Shown here piece by piece: positions 27,303 through 35,627 of a stretch of 37,131 nucleotides of DNA (the first letter of the stretch is position 1; every line of letters begins with the position of its first letter). Source of the DNA: an uncultured Nitrospira sp. Its GTDB lineage: Bacteria > Nitrospirota > Nitrospiria > Nitrospirales > Nitrospiraceae. The notes beneath the pieces are model-generated. The model did no database searches. It was not told the origin of the DNA and saw only the letters and a list, made by a program, of their open reading frames with translations. The stretch is from the NCBI GenBank assembly GCA_902500775.1, contig CABVRZ010000036.1, positions 1 through 37,131 on the forward strand, given 5' to 3'. The translations under genes were made by a program, and so were the position numbers.

Positions 27303-27658
27303 GGCCTCTCCTCCTTGATTCTCTCAATCAGCCTGAAGGATGTGTGGTGTTTCTCTCCCCTGGGAGGCACGAGCGAGAACTCACCGAACGATCGCGATTC
27401 GATATAATGGTCTCGCTGATATGGTTTTATCACGGAGCAGCCTGTCCAAAAACTATTTATGCAGTTCCATCATCGTCCCTGATTGAGAGTGGATTGCACA
27501 CTGGCAGAAGAAACGTCATGGACGTATTGTAGGGACGGGCGAGTCTATTCCTGTCAGGGGGGAGGAGTGTTCGCTAAGGGTTTCAAAACAGTCGTGGTTG
27601 TGCAATCGTTCGGAGTGTTCGTATCTGAGGCTCACCGATCACGCTGGGGAGGTTGTGT
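27303..27658. other. Intergenic region between divergent small genes
   Basis: I find no convincing gene in 356 bases. The small frames (27344-27532, 27483-27695) have no family resemblance and no good start. There is a perfect TATAAT at 27403-27408 on the plus strand, but the region 17 bases upstream is not a good -35, so a promoter is only possible. The 3' end carries GGGGAGG at 27646-27652, the ribosome binding site of the SixA-type gene. Confidence 0.45.
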
Positions 27659-28183
27659 ATGGAGTGCATTCTGTTTCGTCATGGCATTGCGATAGAGCCA
27701 GATCAGTGGGAGGGGGCGGAGGAGAATCGCCCGTTGACAGAAAAAGGGAAGAGGCGCACCAGGCAGGCGGCGCAAGGATTGTCTGCGCTGGGCTGCCAGC
27801 TCACACATCTGTTCACCAGTCCCTTCGTGCGCGCCTACGACACGGCACGACTCGTGCGTACAGCGGTCTGTCCGACGCTGAAAATCGAGACACGGGAGGA
27901 ATTGGCGGTTGGAACAACACCCGAGCAACTCGTGGTGTTTCTTCGCACACTTCCCTCCGATGCGGTTGTCCTGTGCGTAGGGCATGAACCCATGCTGGGT
28001 GAAGTCGCGAGCCTCTTACTCTGTGGGAAAGGGCTTCCCAATTTTCCACTCAAGAAGGCCGGGGCTGTCGGCCTCGAACTGTCGGGTGGCGTCAAATCAG
28101 GACAAGCTCGGTTGCTCTGGTGGCTGCAGCCGGGACAGTTGCGGATGCTTGGGAAATGTGCGTTCGGCAAGGATGAAGAGTGA
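27659..28183 (+). CDS. sixA: SixA-type phosphohistidine phosphatase
   Basis: The 174-residue protein is a histidine-phosphatase superfamily member: LFRHGIA (Arg7, His8), TSPFVRAYDTA (Arg58) and VGHEPML (His109). Length and the SPFVRAYDTA segment match SixA, which removes phosphate from phosphohistidine on phosphotransfer proteins. The ATG at 27659 is set by GGGGAGG six bases upstream; a TTG at 27653 is not needed. It converges with the kinase/Ppx genes, leaving six bases between stops. SixA-like genes often neighbour polyphosphate genes, and here Ppx/GppA is close, so a role in phosphate or polyphosphate control is possible. Confidence 0.88.
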   Translation: MECILFRHGIAIEPDQWEGAEENRPLTEKGKRRTRQAAQGLSALGCQLTHLFTSPFVRAYDTARLVRTAVCPTLKIETREELAVGTTPEQLVVFLRTLPSDAVVLCVGHEPMLGEVASLLLCGKGLPNFPLKKAGAVGLELSGGVKSGQARLLWWLQPGQLRMLGKCAFGKDEE

Positions 28184-28189
28184 GAATAT

Positions 28190-28912
28190 TCAGGAAGGCA
28201 TGGCTTCGGCACTGGCCGGAGGTTTATGGTTCTGGAGCACGGGAAGAATATGTCCTCGCAACTCGTCTTGGATCTCTTCGGGAGATTTCCTGGCATCCAC
28301 GACCGTGAACCCAAATTCCATCGCCATCTTGTCGAATTCTTCGATCAACAGTGATTGGTATTTCTTGAAACTCTCGTAGAGATCGTTCCCCAGCCTGAGA
28401 TCCATGCCGGATTCCCAATAGTTCATGCCGGTGGTTTCAATCACTCGAAGGGCGAGTGTCTCGACATCGATCCGGAGATAGCAGACCAGGTCGGGGATCA
28501 AGGAGAATCCGAACACATCGCGAATCCACTTGCGGTCAGCACTTCGGACAAAGTCACGCGCGAAGGCAGTGTAAATATAGCGATCGGCTAAGACCACGAA
28601 TCCTGAACGGAGTGCCGGAATAATCTGATGCTCAAGACGATCGGCAAAATCAGTCGCATAGAGTAAGCTGAGTGACCACCGGTCGAGAATATTACCAGCT
28701 TTGGCCATCTCGATCGTCTTGGACATGAGGTTGGAGCGGGTCCAGCCAGTGGTGACGACCCCATACCCTTGTACCTCTAACCATTCCTGTAACATCTCGA
28801 TGTGCGTTGAGCGACCGACGCCGTCGGTTCCCTCGATGGCGATGAGCTTGCCCTTCAGATCACTCTGACTTATGTACTTCAAACCGTCGCCAAAAAAGCG
28901 TGCGTCGGCCAT
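28190..28912 (-). CDS. Thymidylate-kinase-like protein with a degenerate P-loop
   Basis: The 240-residue protein aligns over its length with the canonical neighbour, sharing the LADRYxYTAFARD segment, the ESGMDL region and the C-terminal helix. In its P-loop the invariant lysine is an arginine (EGTDGVGRSTH, Arg34, codon CGC; I checked the bases). This lysine holds ATP phosphates in P-loop kinases, so activity may be lost or changed, or it may regulate its partner. ATG 28912 follows GACGAGG and overlaps the partner gene by 53 bases. A longer frame reaches 29002 without a good start site. The protein may be inactive, bind nucleotide only, or form a heterodimer. Confidence 0.85.
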   Translation of the reverse strand: MADARFFGDGLKYISQSDLKGKLIAIEGTDGVGRSTHIEMLQEWLEVQGYGVVTTGWTRSNLMSKTIEMAKAGNILDRWSLSLLYATDFADRLEHQIIPALRSGFVVLADRYIYTAFARDFVRSADRKWIRDVFGFSLIPDLVCYLRIDVETLALRVIETTGMNYWESGMDLRLGNDLYESFKKYQSLLIEEFDKMAMEFGFTVVDARKSPEEIQDELRGHILPVLQNHKPPASAEAMPS

Positions 28913-29609
28913 AGGTGCCTCGTCGTGGTTTGTAACCGATGAGCGCATGTTCCACCAGCGCCCGCATCTGTTCCTGCTGCAGTTCAATGTCTTGGGTCGC
29001 ATCCATCGTCAAGAGGCCAAATTCCTCCACAATCTTGGCGTACTCGTCCAGAATACGGGATTGAAAGATGTGGAAACTTTCGGTGATGTCCGGACTGAGA
29101 TTCATGTCCATGCCGGCTTCATAGTATTTGAATTGGCCACGAGTCCCGCCCAACAGTCTGGAAACGGCGACTTCAATCGGGACGTTGTAATAAAACGCCA
29201 TATCGGGCTTGATGGCGAAGGCGTACAGTTTCCTGACCCACTCGTGGGCGACGCCACGGACCACATCGCGGGCAAAGGCCGTGTACATGTATCGATCGGC
29301 TAAGACGATCATCCCGGCCTTCAGCGGAGGCAGAATGTGGTGATAGAGTCGGCTGGCAAAGTCCGTGGCATGGAGCAAGCTGAAGGTTGTCGGGGTCAGG
29401 CGTTTCGACTTTTTCCCGCGCTTGGTGGTCTCCTTCACGAGTTCAGAGGAGTTCCATTCCGTAAAAAACACCTTGTGGCCTTTGGACTCAAGCCACTTGT
29501 GCAGCAATTGCAGTTGGGTGCTTTTCCCAGATCCATCGATACCCTCGACAATGATGAGCTTGCCTGGATACGGGTGAGGCACCGTTTTGATCACATGCGA
29601 TTCGGTCAT
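28860..29609 (-). CDS. Thymidylate-kinase-like nucleotide kinase, canonical P-loop
   Basis: The 249-residue protein has an intact P-loop (EGIDGSGKST, Lys29). It also has a thymidylate-kinase DR motif (VLADRYMYTAFARD, in place of DRFxxS), a likely lid region near LLGGTRGQFKYYEAG, and a C-terminal helix. It would phosphorylate dTMP or a related (d)NMP with ATP in the cytosol. It is longer than usual thymidylate kinases (about 205-215) and the DR motif has Thr instead of Ser, so the substrate may differ and another tmk may exist elsewhere. Its start overlaps the end of the Ppx/GppA gene by four bases, and its end overlaps the paralogue, so all three genes are co-translated. Confidence 0.85.
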   Translation of the reverse strand: MTESHVIKTVPHPYPGKLIIVEGIDGSGKSTQLQLLHKWLESKGHKVFFTEWNSSELVKETTKRGKKSKRLTPTTFSLLHATDFASRLYHHILPPLKAGMIVLADRYMYTAFARDVVRGVAHEWVRKLYAFAIKPDMAFYYNVPIEVAVSRLLGGTRGQFKYYEAGMDMNLSPDITESFHIFQSRILDEYAKIVEEFGLLTMDATQDIELQQEQMRALVEHALIGYKPRRGTYGRRTLFWRRFEVHKSE

Positions 29610-31165
29610 GAGTGGTCCGGTTCAGGTTGCAATGGCACGCCGGAGAATTGGACGCGTCGACGAAAGACCTGTTCAAAGAGATCGGCTCGGTTTTTTGCAG
29701 CCCAGAGTTCCATCTCCGCGTCACCCGTGAGGTGCACGTCGATGGTAATCAGCTTCCCAAGTTTCACCTGCACACGGTGAATCAGGGAGAAATGGGTCCG
29801 GTCCAGCCCATCTGCGATTCGCAACAGCGACGCAAGGATCTTGACGGTGCGTTGTAGGCGAGGCGGTAGGCTATTGAACTCCTCGTGTTTGAGCCCTGGC
29901 AAGGCTCGTCGATGATAACGGGCGATGTTGGCGACTACATCGATATCTTCAGCCGTCAACCCACCGAGATCGCTATGCTTGATCAGGTAGTACGCGTGTT
30001 TGTGGTGCTGCCTGGGGTTGATCAGGTAACCCACATCATGCAGGATGGCGGCATATTCCAGCCAGGTTCGTTCTTGATCGCCTAAGTGATGCTCTCGCTT
30101 GGTCTGGTCGAACAGCTGTAAGGCTAAATTGGCCACGTGCAGGGAATGGCTTTCCGGTGCTTGGCAGCGCCGCGCCAGACCGATCACGTTCCGACGGCGG
30201 ACGTCAGGGATATCCTGCTCGGCTTTGAGCCCTTCTCGATGGCGAACGATAAAATCGTAGATGACCCCCTCTCGAACGGCTTTGTCGCAGAGTGTGATCT
30301 CCTGAAGGCCGGAGAGTTCGAGGAGGCAGCGCAGGACGACGGTCGTCGGCAGCAAGGTATCGACGCGTTTGGGATTCAGACCGGGGATGGCCAGGCGATC
30401 CTTGATCGAGGAACGCGCTAATTCAGCTTCAAGGCTTTGGATATGCTTGATGGGAACGGTTGCCAGATTGTGTTGTGGCAGCGGTCGACCCGTTTGACGG
30501 AGATGCACAATCTCGCCCACATTGCCAGCCATGCCTGAGGTGGCAACCAGAGAGTGAAACTTTTTCACCTTGCAGGATCTGAGGGCATCACGGAGGTGAG
30601 TCGTGACGACCGTTTCCAGCTCGTGCATCATGGACTCAGACGGTGGAGTCTTCGGGAGACATTGCTCGGTGAGACGGATGGCTCCCAGTTTGAGGCTGGT
30701 GCCGTGCATGAGGCCATCTCGATTTCCCACGATCAACTCGACCGATCCGCCGCCGATGTCCACGACCAATGTCGGTCCGTCCGGGAGGGCGATACTATTC
30801 TTGACGCCGAGAAAGATCAGTCGAGCTTCCTCCACCCCGCTGATGACACGTACCTTTAACCCGATCTCTTCCAAGATCATCGCAACGAACTCACCACCGT
30901 TTTGGGCTTCACGTACTGCGCTGGTCGCCACGGCGATGATGCGCTCAAATCCCTTGTTCCGAGCGAGTGTGACCAACGTCTTCAGCACAGTCATCGCACG
31001 GGCCATGGATTCCTCGGACAGGCGTCTGGTGGCGAAGACACCGTTGCCCAAGCGGGTGATGTCTTTGAACCGATCCAGAATCTTAAAGCTGGCATCGGGC
31101 AGAATCTCTGCCAGCACCATGTGAATGGAGTTCGTTCCGATATCGATGATGGCTAGTTTGGACAC
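29606..31165 (-). CDS. ppx: Ppx/GppA phosphatase with HD domain
   Basis: The 519-residue protein has the ASKHA phosphate loops AIIDIGTNSIHM (5-16) and VVDIGGGSVEL (134-144), the catalytic glutamate region ISGVEEARLI (Glu112/Glu113) and NPKRVDTLLPT. A C-terminal HD region has HSLHVANLALQ (about 340-350) and LHDVGY (His376, Asp377). It hydrolyses polyphosphate and/or pppGpp; which one cannot be told from sequence. The start is GTG with a weak ribosome binding site. It is the first gene of the three-gene minus-strand set with the two kinases, which suggests nucleotide or polyphosphate metabolism. Length is typical of two-domain family members. Confidence 0.92.
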   Translation of the reverse strand: MSKLAIIDIGTNSIHMVLAEILPDASFKILDRFKDITRLGNGVFATRRLSEESMARAMTVLKTLVTLARNKGFERIIAVATSAVREAQNGGEFVAMILEEIGLKVRVISGVEEARLIFLGVKNSIALPDGPTLVVDIGGGSVELIVGNRDGLMHGTSLKLGAIRLTEQCLPKTPPSESMMHELETVVTTHLRDALRSCKVKKFHSLVATSGMAGNVGEIVHLRQTGRPLPQHNLATVPIKHIQSLEAELARSSIKDRLAIPGLNPKRVDTLLPTTVVLRCLLELSGLQEITLCDKAVREGVIYDFIVRHREGLKAEQDIPDVRRRNVIGLARRCQAPESHSLHVANLALQLFDQTKREHHLGDQERTWLEYAAILHDVGYLINPRQHHKHAYYLIKHSDLGGLTAEDIDVVANIARYHRRALPGLKHEEFNSLPPRLQRTVKILASLLRIADGLDRTHFSLIHRVQVKLGKLITIDVHLTGDAEMELWAAKNRADLFEQVFRRRVQFSGVPLQPEPDHS

Positions 31166-31946: not shown

Positions 31947-34900
31947 TCACTGAAGGAGTGACTGGGCTGCTTCATAGATCGGCTGAGTCTTGCTGATCGG
32001 TGTCCAGCTCAAGATCGCCAACGAATCCTCAACATATTTTGGTGTTCGCATTCCGTTTAAGACGCAAGTGACTCCCGGCGTACTGCTGAGTATCCAGCAC
32101 ATCTGCTGAGAAAGAGAGGTGGCGCGATACGCGTCTGGCAAGAGCGGACTGATGGCGCGTGTGATCCGTTCGGTTTGGGCACGGCTCCGCATAGTGGCCT
32201 CGTGCCTACATGCACGGAGCAGACTCAACAGCTCCGGAATGTATCGTTGTCGCCAGTGCTCCCACTGTTCCGCCATTGTCCCGGAGAGCTGGCGTGACAG
32301 TAACTGGAGGACCTGATTGACTCGGGGCGCCACCATATGGTGCTCGATCTGTTCCCACTGTTCAAGCCCTTGGATCTGCGGCTGGACGCGGCGTAGTTCA
32401 GCAGACCAATTGAAGTAGTCGCTTGGAGCGGTCTCAGTTCCGGTCGAATGGATCTGTGGAGCCAGGGAGGTCCGGTATTCTTGCTCAAGGGTGTCGACGG
32501 TGTGCAGTTGCTGATCAAGGTCGATGGACGTGTCTTCGATCGGGAGTTCTGCGAGCCGTACCATCTGGTTACGTCCCACCATCGCGTTGAGTGGCCGGTT
32601 CACGAGCACGGCGATGTTGTGCTCACGTGCATAGTCAAGCACGGTCTGTGCACATGAGGGACCGGTATTGGCGTTTGTGGCTGGCCCGGACTCGAAGAGA
32701 TTCATCGGGCATTGCAGAACTTGGAAGTGATGGGTAGGGGATCCGACGGATCGTGCTGCCGTTTCAGCTGCTTGCACCATACGCGAAAGGGATGTCCCTT
32801 CTGGGTCATCAGCGGACAATGCGACCGTGTTCGAGGATACACCATAATATTGGAGCCGTCCAGCCGACACCTGTGTCTCAAAGTAGGCAAAGGCTCGCTG
32901 AAGACGATCGTAGAAATCCGTGCGCAGTTGTTCAAGATTTGGCGTGCCGCGATGTCGAGCGTCCAAGAGAACATATTCCGGGTTATGGAGCAGGCAGATG
33001 TCCAAGGTTGTGAGCCCAAGCCGATCCAAGGACAATGCCAGCTGGTCCGCCAAGAACTCAGGATGCATGCAATGCCAAATTCCGTCCCCGTATTTCACCA
33101 GCTCTGGGTAGGGATGTCCCGAGCGTTCTTTGGCTTCGGCGAGTTTGAGATTCTGCCCTTGGATGTAGCCGATTTTAGACACGATGATGAGTTCATCTCG
33201 TCGAATCTCACCGGACGCCACAAGGTTGTGCAGAACGGATCCGACCAATCGTTCACTGTCGCCGTCCGTGTAGTTTGTGGACGTGTCGATGAGGTTGCAG
33301 GATGTGCGTATGGCCTGTGTGAGTGCCGCGCGATGTTCAGCATGCTGGGTGTCGACCCGATAGGTGCCGAATCCGATGCGTGTGGTGGTGAGGCCGGTTG
33401 TCCCGAGCGCGGTCAGCCCTTGTGCTAGGCTAGCCTGTCCGATTCGCGCCAGCATGCGAGATGCATAGGTTGCCGTACCCTGTACGGTCGCCTGGCCCGA
33501 CAGCAGCCTTCCGCTCAGCAGCCTGGGTTCGCGGGGCACATTCAAAGCGCTGGACTGATCGGTCTGTAAGGCCTCCGCAATAGCACGAGGGTCCGTAATC
33601 GGCTGTTGGCAGGTATAATTCCGACAAATGTAGAGGGTGGGCAGACCGGACACGGCTGGTCTATCCTTCAAGAGAGGAAGAGACGACGGCGTCGACGGTG
33701 GGTCTGTCGCAATGACGCGGTTGGGCAGGTAACATTGTGCCACGGCTTGTCGGATCGAACCAAGCGCGTCCTTCGTGAAGTCACCGACAATCGCCAGTTC
33801 CACCGGGCCCTCAGTCAAAAAGTCGACGACCGCGAGACTCTTGGCAAAGGCGCGGGGGTAGCGAATCGTCTGCCGACCGTAGGCGCGTACTGCGGCTGTT
33901 GCCGCACGCCGCCAATCATCTCGATCATAGTGGAAGGACAGCCGAGCGAGGGCTGAAGCGGCCACGGCATTGGCGCTCGGTGTTGCTCCGTCTGTGCCTT
34001 CGCGGTGACGCAGGAGGAGGGCTTCATGCTGTTTCGCAGTCGTGAAGAATCCGCCCTGTTCCTCGTCCAGGAAGTCTGTGATCAGGTAGTCGGCTAGTCG
34101 TGCAGCGGCGTGGAGATAGGACTCAGCCGCGCCGGCTTCATAGAGATCGACCAGCCCTTCAGCCAGGTAGGCATAGTCTTCCAGATAGGCGTCGAGATGC
34201 GCGCGACCGGCTCGTGACGTGCGGAATAAACGTCCATCAGGTTTGGCATGGTGCCGCAGCAAGTAATCAGTAGTTCGTGAGGCCTGCTGGAGGTATCGGT
34301 CGTCGTCAAAGACGCGTGCGGCTTCAGCCATGGCGGACAGCATCATGCCGTTCCAGGAGGTGATGATCTTGTCATCAAGCCCAGGAGGAATACGCTTCCG
34401 CCTGGCTTCATACAGCAGGGGTTTCGCTCGGGAAGCGCTGTCCAGCAACTCGTTGGTGGTCAGATTCAGCTGTCTCGCTACTTCTTCGATTGGGCGCAGC
34501 CGATTGGGAATATTGGTGTGTTCCCAATTGCCTGCTTCCGTGATGTCGTACAGCGCACAGAATCGTCGCGTGTCTTCGTCGTTCTGGAGGATCTCCCGGA
34601 CCTGGGTCGGTGTCCAGACGAAGAACTTGCCTTCGACGCCTTCTGAGTCGGCATCGGTCGAGGAGTAGAATCCGCCTTCAGGACCGGTCATCTCGCGGCA
34701 GATATAGTCGAGCACATCAGTTGCCACATGGCGATAGAGGGGCGACTTGGTGACCTGATAGGCCTCAACATACACGCGTGCCAGCAGTGCGTTGTCATAG
34801 AGCATTTTTTCAAAATGGGGAACCAACCATCGGGCGTCCGTCGAGTAGCGCGCGAACCCACCACCGATATGGTCGTAGATGCCGCCTGCCGCCATCATGT

Positions 34901-35627
34901 CGAGAGTCTTGGTCACCATATTGAGAGTCTGTGAGTCTCCCGATCGCCGGTGACTGCGGAGCAAAAACGACAAACCCATCGCCGGTGGAAACTTCGGTGC
35001 CGTACCGAACCCACCATGGGTTTCGTCGAAGTCGTCCTTGAATTGGGAGACGGCTTCCGTCAGCACCGATTCGCTGATGGAGATCGGAGAGAGCGGTTGC
35101 TTCGTGCCTTGTAGTTGCCCGGTCAGCTCCTTGGCTTGCTCACGGACGTCCGAAGATCGTGTGTCCCAATAGTCGGCAATCTTCTTGAGGACGGAGCCGA
35201 AACCTGGCCGGCCCCAGCGATCTTCAGGAGGGAAATACGTCCCGGCGAAGAATGGTTCCTGTTCCGGTGTCAGGAAGACGGTCATCGGCCACCCACCCTG
35301 ACCATGGTTCATGGCGATGGTGGCAGCCATATAGATCTCATCAAGGTCAGGGCGTTCTTCGCGATCGACCTTGATACAGATGAACCAGCGATTCATCAGC
35401 TCAGCGATGGCCTGGTTCTCGAACGATTCCCGTTCCATGACATGGCACCAGTGGCAGGCGGAATAGCCGATGGAGAGCAAGATAGGCCGCTGTGTTTCTT
35501 TTGCGAGCTGCAGCGCGTCCGGTCCCCAGGGGTACCAGTCGACGGGGTTGTAGGCATGTTGCAGCAGATAGGGACTGGTTTCGTGGAGGAGCCGATTTGG
35601 TTTGCCGGTTGTGGAGGTTGATGACAT
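31947..35627 (-). CDS. DUF255 thioredoxin/glycosidase-fold protein fused to an aldo/keto reductase
   Basis: The 1226-residue protein has three parts. Residues 1-180 are a DUF255 thioredoxin-like domain (NPVDWYPWG, then the CHWC motif at Cys58-Cys61). Residues about 190-690 are an (alpha/alpha)6-barrel like that of SPATA20/YyaL. Residues about 745-1226 are an aldo/keto reductase with all four catalytic residues: Asp781, Tyr786 (STNY), Lys818 (VSKIG) and His881 (CLLHNPEY). YyaL-type proteins normally stop near residue 690, so the reductase is an addition. Neither function is known in detail; the fusion suggests a redox or carbonyl-handling job. No signal peptide is seen. It probably shares a transcript with the OmpA-like gene. 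Confidence 0.85.

Follow-up and report, generated by a model that had tools for sequence, protein, structure and literature searches.

The window, by which we mean the whole 37,131-nucleotide stretch that was analyzed, comes from a Nitrospira genome and has three genes in a row on the minus strand (ppx/gppA, then A, then B) whose ends overlap. The first (29606-31165) encodes an exopolyphosphatase of the Ppx/GppA family with an HD domain (Pfam Ppx-GppA, E = 1.8e-61; domain III, E = 1.3e-29; HD, E = 3.2e-10). Its stop codon and the start codon of gene A (28860-29609) overlap as ATGA. Gene A encodes a 249-amino-acid protein with a thymidylate-kinase fold (Pfam Thymidylate_kin, 79.5 bits; cut-off 27), and gene B (28190-28912) encodes a 240-amino-acid paralog of A (66.4 bits for the same family and cut-off). 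The longest open frame for B begins at 29002. We set its start at 28912 because relatives align from the methionine there, with GAGG five bases upstream. The real span of B is probably 28190-28912, so that the end of A and the start of B share 53 bases (28860-28912). In the listed relatives with coordinates, A and B likewise overlap or abut. These overlaps suggest that ppx/gppA, A, and B are translated together. A translationally coupled "Thymidylate kinase" cluster (100 genes, 25 genera) has been described (PMC3711429), which may or may not be the same as the A-B pair.

On the plus strand, and convergent with B, is a gene for a SixA-like histidine phosphatase (27653-28183; His_Phos_1, E = 1.6e-8). 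It scores 73.5 bits against the sixA equivalog, slightly below the cut-off of 74.5. Elsewhere in the window, an open frame of 1226 amino acids (31947-35627, minus strand) appears by eye to combine a thioredoxin-like DUF255 part with an aldo-keto-reductase-like C-terminal part. We also note that the 3' end of A (28860-28935, minus strand) encodes a basic FWRRF-like tail that is conserved in Nitrospirota and in some alignment rows from Omnitrophota and Myxococcota. The rows from Acidobacteria lack this tail, and the tail region is poorly modeled.

A first-pass annotation of this DNA had described A and B as overlapping paralogs with different P-loops (EGIDGSGKST in A and EGTDGVGRST in B), and this is what we find. 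The lysine of the P-loop of A is Lys29 (codon AAA, 29523-29525, minus strand), and the corresponding arginine of B is Arg34 (codon CGC, 28811-28813, minus strand). Across the source genome and its relatives in Nitrospirales, B has the arginine at 27 of 27 loci, and A has the lysine in all 26 cases that we saw. Among the named loci from GTDB (the best 80 of at least 569 matches, from genomes that partly overlap with the Nitrospirales set), B has the arginine at 80 of 80. The named loci were found with the patterns YWESGMD and LLYATDFA, and the P-loop lies outside both patterns. The arginine is also present in B at 9 of 9 loci from Acidobacteria, three of which are from genomes that are already in the 80-locus set. 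Even the most divergent pairs from Acidobacteria (L133-L136) and a distant pair from Nitrospirota (L163) have lysine in A and arginine in B. The first-pass annotation had allowed that the arginine might be a local mutation if orthologs carried lysine. Lysine is absent from every B-clade sequence that we read, and the counts of 27/27 and 80/80 rule out a local mutation. As judged from these sequences, the arginine is ancient and fixed.

B has a second lesion that adds to the one in the P-loop. In A, four residues (K29, R106, R157, and K161) are invariant over 46 alignment rows, and two of these, Arg157 (codon CGT, 29139-29141, minus strand) and Lys161, are in the LID. The equivalent stretch of B has no conserved arginine and has a GMNYWESGMD-like motif instead. 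The rest of B is well kept, with many positions that do not vary over 46 rows, among them Arg34, DRY, and the acidic residue of the P-loop. (The structure work drew on 46 of the 61 available alignment rows for B and 46 of the 60 for A.) B also has TGWTRS with an invariant arginine (Arg59), versus TEWNSS with an invariant NSS in A.

The pair is widespread. In Nitrospirales, 57 of 59 genomes contain a match to A, which in the weak cases is at the level of the canonical tmk. The A-B pair is in 27 of the 59. (Two of these are fragmentary, in G020 and G053; short fragments in G004 and G027 were left out.) In Nitrospirota as a whole, 85 of 395 genomes match the pair, with at least two hits each. The 80 named loci, chosen as the best among at least 569 matches, are biased towards Nitrospira. 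They come from Nitrospirota, Acidobacteriota, Omnitrophota, Planctomycetota, Myxococcota, Bacteroidota, and Ignavibacteriota, and the last four of these phyla are represented by just one or two loci each, from metagenome bins. An A with the P-loop lysine adjoins B at 75 of these 80 loci. The five exceptions have an A that is truncated at the contig start (L064 and L066), spread over two frames (L049 and L062), or missing its N-terminal half (L051). In our trees, A and B each form a clade (support of 94/84 and 89/91 for A; 95/92 and 100/99 for B), each clade includes all of the phyla that we sampled, and the canonical Tmk proteins are on a very long branch away from both. The simplest reading of these trees is that the split between A and B predates the pair's spread among phyla and that the two genes traveled together.

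Several other arrangements turned up in these surveys. Genomes of the class around G091 (Acidobacteria) contain a third thymidylate-kinase-like family (L119-L132), which is unpaired, has the P-loop lysine (EGPDGSGKTT or similar) and a YEAGQDV-like motif, and forms its own clade in the tree. By eye, we recognized no Ppx near the five of these loci that have listed neighbors. In G387 (L165 and L166), one contig carries A and B with about 38 kb between them, and B lacks the P-loop part; A is still next to ppx and B is next to a SixA-like gene. One Nitrospira genome has two copies of B about 15 kb apart (JABMDK010000006.1; L037 and L051), and only the C-terminal half of A precedes the second copy (L051). 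An apparent fusion of Ppx and A in G546 (an open frame of 699 codons) was rejected, as ppx sits in another frame. No fusion of A to B was noticed among the loci that we read.

The most unexpected part of this material is that the B side appears to have two different lesions. A deep family within Nitrospirota (f22; 17 genomes, of which we read 10) also has a tandem pair, and the B-like gene comes first at 10 of 10 loci. This B-like protein groups with B (support of 99/96). In all 10 it has the P-loop lysine, with EQY in place of the DRY of A. The loss of function on the B side thus seems to have come about by two separate routes. The companion gene falls outside the A clade, so the pairing in f22 may have a separate origin. 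Ppx/GppA is nearby at 5 of the 10 f22 loci (L153-L162) and not at the other 5. These data bear on whether B could itself be an active phosphotransferase, with Arg34 in place of the lysine, that acts on a different substrate or in the direction opposite to A. In favor of this reading, B is invariant at many positions, Arg34, DRY, and the acidic residue of its P-loop among them, as an active site would be, and the invariant Arg59 of TGWTRS, versus the invariant NSS of A, might suit such a role. However, changing the P-loop lysine to arginine usually abolishes turnover in P-loop enzymes. B also lacks a conserved LID arginine, and the partner in the sister clade f22 has a different lesion. We consider an active B unlikely.

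B could instead be a decaying pseudogene, since it lost the P-loop lysine and since the B of G387, 38 kb from its A, lacks the P-loop part. To the contrary, the constraint on B matches or exceeds that on A. Across 18 loci from Nitrospira (153 pairs, of which those with saturated or very small dS were dropped), the median dN/dS is 0.027 for B (133 pairs) and 0.033 for A (138 pairs); the two ranges overlap, and these values are rough because the median dS is 1.3-1.4, which is near saturation. Median identities within the genus are 94% (B) and 90% (A) over 18 loci, compared to 74% for the canonical Tmk (six genomes). B is not decaying, because its dN/dS is low and its sequence is strongly kept apart from the lesions. 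The first-pass annotation had argued that B is not a fully decayed copy, and the low dN/dS and the fixation of the arginine across phyla bear this out. Given these two results, a pseudogene is almost certainly the wrong explanation.

We considered whether A and B might supply dTDP. The source genome contains a separate, canonical tmk on a different contig (G000:C18:31666-32235). At 168.2 bits, it is a stronger match than A or B, so neither of them is the sole tmk candidate in this genome. With a canonical tmk elsewhere, neither A nor B looks necessary for dTDP supply, and it is unlikely that they are this genome's genuine dTMP kinases. Against the NCBI equivalog TIGR00041 (cut-off 83.25), A scores 88.6, which is above the cut-off, and B scores 71.4, which is below it. 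We also compared the two proteins to known structures, as the first-pass annotation had suggested. Both AlphaFold models have thymidylate-kinase folds (mean pLDDT 75.1 and pTM 0.70 for A; mean pLDDT 83.9 and pTM 0.83 for B), and the nearest solved structure is ST1543 from Sulfolobus tokodaii. ST1543 is the best PDB match for A (E = 1.5e-19) and for B (Z = 27.1, rmsd of 1.6 over 204 residues). It is annotated as a dTMP kinase, and our trees leave its place relative to A and B ambiguous.

The pair might therefore be an accessory kinase for dTMP or another dNMP, whose proximity to ppx is unrelated to polyphosphate. This would fit the fold, the best structural matches (to dTMP kinases), and the thymidylate kinase annotation-type matches, including A's score above the TIGR00041 cut-off. 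But a canonical tmk is already present in the genome, a very long branch separates the pair from true Tmks, and the pair is repeatedly linked to Ppx, SixA, and CHAD across phyla. We believe that an accessory nucleotide kinase is very unlikely.

The genes around the pair suggest a link to polyphosphate. Within 1.7 kb of the pair, there is a Ppx gene at 67 of the 80 named loci, including 18 of the 25 outside of Nitrospirota. A SixA-like phosphatase is near the pair at 51 of the 80 loci, CHAD at 11, and PPK2 at 2. (All of these are raw counts. Neighbors were clustered by BLAST similarity, and the clusters were named from the genes in the window and from 10 proteins that we checked with Pfam.) PhoU, an ABC transporter ATPase, or a response regulator is also beside some of the pairs. 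CHAD is described as a polyphosphate-binding domain (PMC6537752). We saw no Ppx in the vicinity of the four most divergent pairs from Acidobacteria.

The close association with Ppx at 67 of the 80 loci, the overlapping genes, and the apparent death of one subunit are what we might see if the pair were a sensor that binds nucleotides or polyphosphate and controls Ppx/GppA, SixA, and CHAD, and that neither makes nor uses polyphosphate. We think that a pure sensor is quite unlikely, since the catalytic motifs of A are intact and invariant across phyla. Also, Ppx is missing near some pairs, and a distinct polyphosphate kinase has been reported from a related archaeal lineage.

If the pair is a polyphosphate kinase, then it might take the place of known ones. 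In the source genome, a whole-genome search found two PPK2 genes and no match to PPK1 or CHAD. G024, a genome in one contig, has ppx and the pair and no match to PPK1, PPK2, or CHAD. Our control genome, from Sulfolobus acidocaldarius, also had no match to any of the three. In the class around G091 (Acidobacteria), PPK1 is present in 5 of 36 genomes with the pair versus 113 of 157 other genomes (p = 1.3e-10; as with all of our association tests for PPK1 and PPK2, this p value is not corrected for shared descent). The 36 genomes were counted by eye from B-type hits, and a fragment in G143 was treated as pair-less. In the 59 genomes from Nitrospirales, PPK1 is present in 8 of 27 genomes with the pair versus 20 of 32 without it (p = 0.018). 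Within the genus Nitrospira, the difference is not significant (8 of 19 versus 10 of 16, p = 0.31), and across the 395 genomes from Nitrospirota, it is in the opposite direction (24 of 85 versus 56 of 310, p = 0.047). PPK2 showed no significant link to the pair in the 59 genomes from Nitrospirales (17 of 27 versus 25 of 32). For 49 of the 80 named loci, we also checked the genomes, which partly repeat those of the first survey: PPK1 is in 5 and PPK2 is in 35. Taken together, the distribution of PPK1 offers mixed support. Given the lack of a significant association within the genus and the reversed trend in Nitrospirota, we do not propose that the pair generally excludes PPK1. The pair may replace PPK1 in some genomes, and such replacement is not obligatory.

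We propose that A and B likely form a bacterial polyphosphate kinase of the heteromeric type known as PPK3, with A as the catalytic subunit and B as a noncatalytic, regulatory subunit. A would move phosphate reversibly between polyphosphate and ADP/ATP, with the P-loop Lys29 and the Arg157 and Lys161 of the LID holding the phosphoryl groups. B would be unable to catalyze this reaction because the lysine of its P-loop and the arginine of its LID are both lost. B keeps its fold and DRY, and its P-loop would probably still bind phosphate or nucleotide. B would pair with A, probably by the dimer face of thymidylate kinases, and would activate or regulate it.

The first-pass annotation had suggested that B is a pseudokinase partner that binds nucleotide and regulates A. 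That B is a conserved and catalytically compromised partner of an active-looking A is well supported, because the arginine is fixed, the LID arginine is lost, dN/dS is low, and A is adjacent at nearly every locus. Our data show the sequences, the fixed lesions of B, its constraint, the pairing and surroundings of the two genes, and the folds as predicted. That the two form a heteromer, that polyphosphate is the substrate, and that B regulates A is what we infer. The same annotation had raised an enzyme with a new substrate as an alternative, and this idea is supported as well: the neighbors and the literature favor polyphosphate over dTMP.

A broader version of our proposal is quite possible, although we would not yet bet on it. 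Heteromeric polyphosphate kinases with the thymidylate-kinase fold might be widespread in several bacterial phyla and able to replace PPK1. They might need a dead subunit, which can be disabled in various ways, and its dead site might be a conserved sensor that responds to nucleotide or polyphosphate and so determines which way the reversible reaction runs. If the proposal is correct, then the "thymidylate kinase" matches in Nitrospirota, Acidobacteriota, Omnitrophota, and other groups are misnamed, and nitrite oxidizers that lack PPK1 gain a candidate polyphosphate kinase. The fixed arginine in the Walker A motif, together with the different lesion in the sister clade, would also provide a clean natural test of the purpose of a dead kinase subunit.

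How does the pair compare to known systems? The canonical bacterial dTMP kinase (TIGR00041) has the fold, the P-loop, and the DR motifs in common with A; it differs in having its own gene in the source genome and in lying on a very long branch away from A and B. PPK2 (PF03976) is likewise a family of polyphosphate-using P-loop kinases, and it is in the same cluster as the pair at one locus (L104), but neither A nor B has a Pfam match to PPK2 or to PPK1 (PF02503), which rules out membership in these families. The best sequence match for both proteins (E = 3.1e-63 for A and 1.9e-50 for B) is ST1543, a "probable thymidylate kinase" (PDB 2plr, 4nzy, 4rzx, and 5h70). It shares TEWNSS, LTPLTFSLIHATDF, DRYIYTAYARD, and the LID arginine with A, and it differs from B in having the P-loop lysine and the LID arginine.

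The known system that most resembles the pair is PPK3 from S. acidocaldarius, whose genes are said to be Saci_2019 and Saci_2020. Hofmann et al. reportedly found a heteromer encoded by two neighboring "thymidylate kinase" genes downstream of ppx, with a catalytic subunit and a second subunit that has no activity by itself and stimulates its partner. Adjacent genes of the thymidylate-kinase family that are linked to ppx, which is reportedly the arrangement in S. acidocaldarius, are found at our locus and at 67 of the 80 named loci. A subunit whose motifs are intact and a partner that is presumed to be noncatalytic would also agree with what is said of PPK3. A and B fit this description closely.

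A conserved context of SixA, PPX, dTMP kinase, and CHAD is described for biomining archaea of the Sulfolobales (PMC10892726), and Sulfolobales are reported to accumulate polyphosphate even though PPK1 and PPK2 are absent (PMC6864096, PMC7831078). The enzyme that Hofmann et al. characterized from S. acidocaldarius is referred to as a distinct or "family 3" polyphosphate kinase (PMC11677633, PMC13318637; the sources for PPK3 are a 2024 preprint, 10.1101/2024.08.28.610084, and J Biol Chem 2026 302:111283). Among the papers listed by our literature searches, none was on the bacterial A-B pair. Hofmann et al. may report bacterial homologs. The archaeal system thus resembles the pair in having SixA and CHAD nearby in biomining archaea, and it comes from a lineage without PPK1 or PPK2. 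It differs in that A and B are bacterial and in that many of the genomes with the pair have PPK2 and some have PPK1. By this analogy, the system that we describe very probably belongs to an enzyme class that was already known, the archaeal PPK3, which the first-pass annotation had missed.
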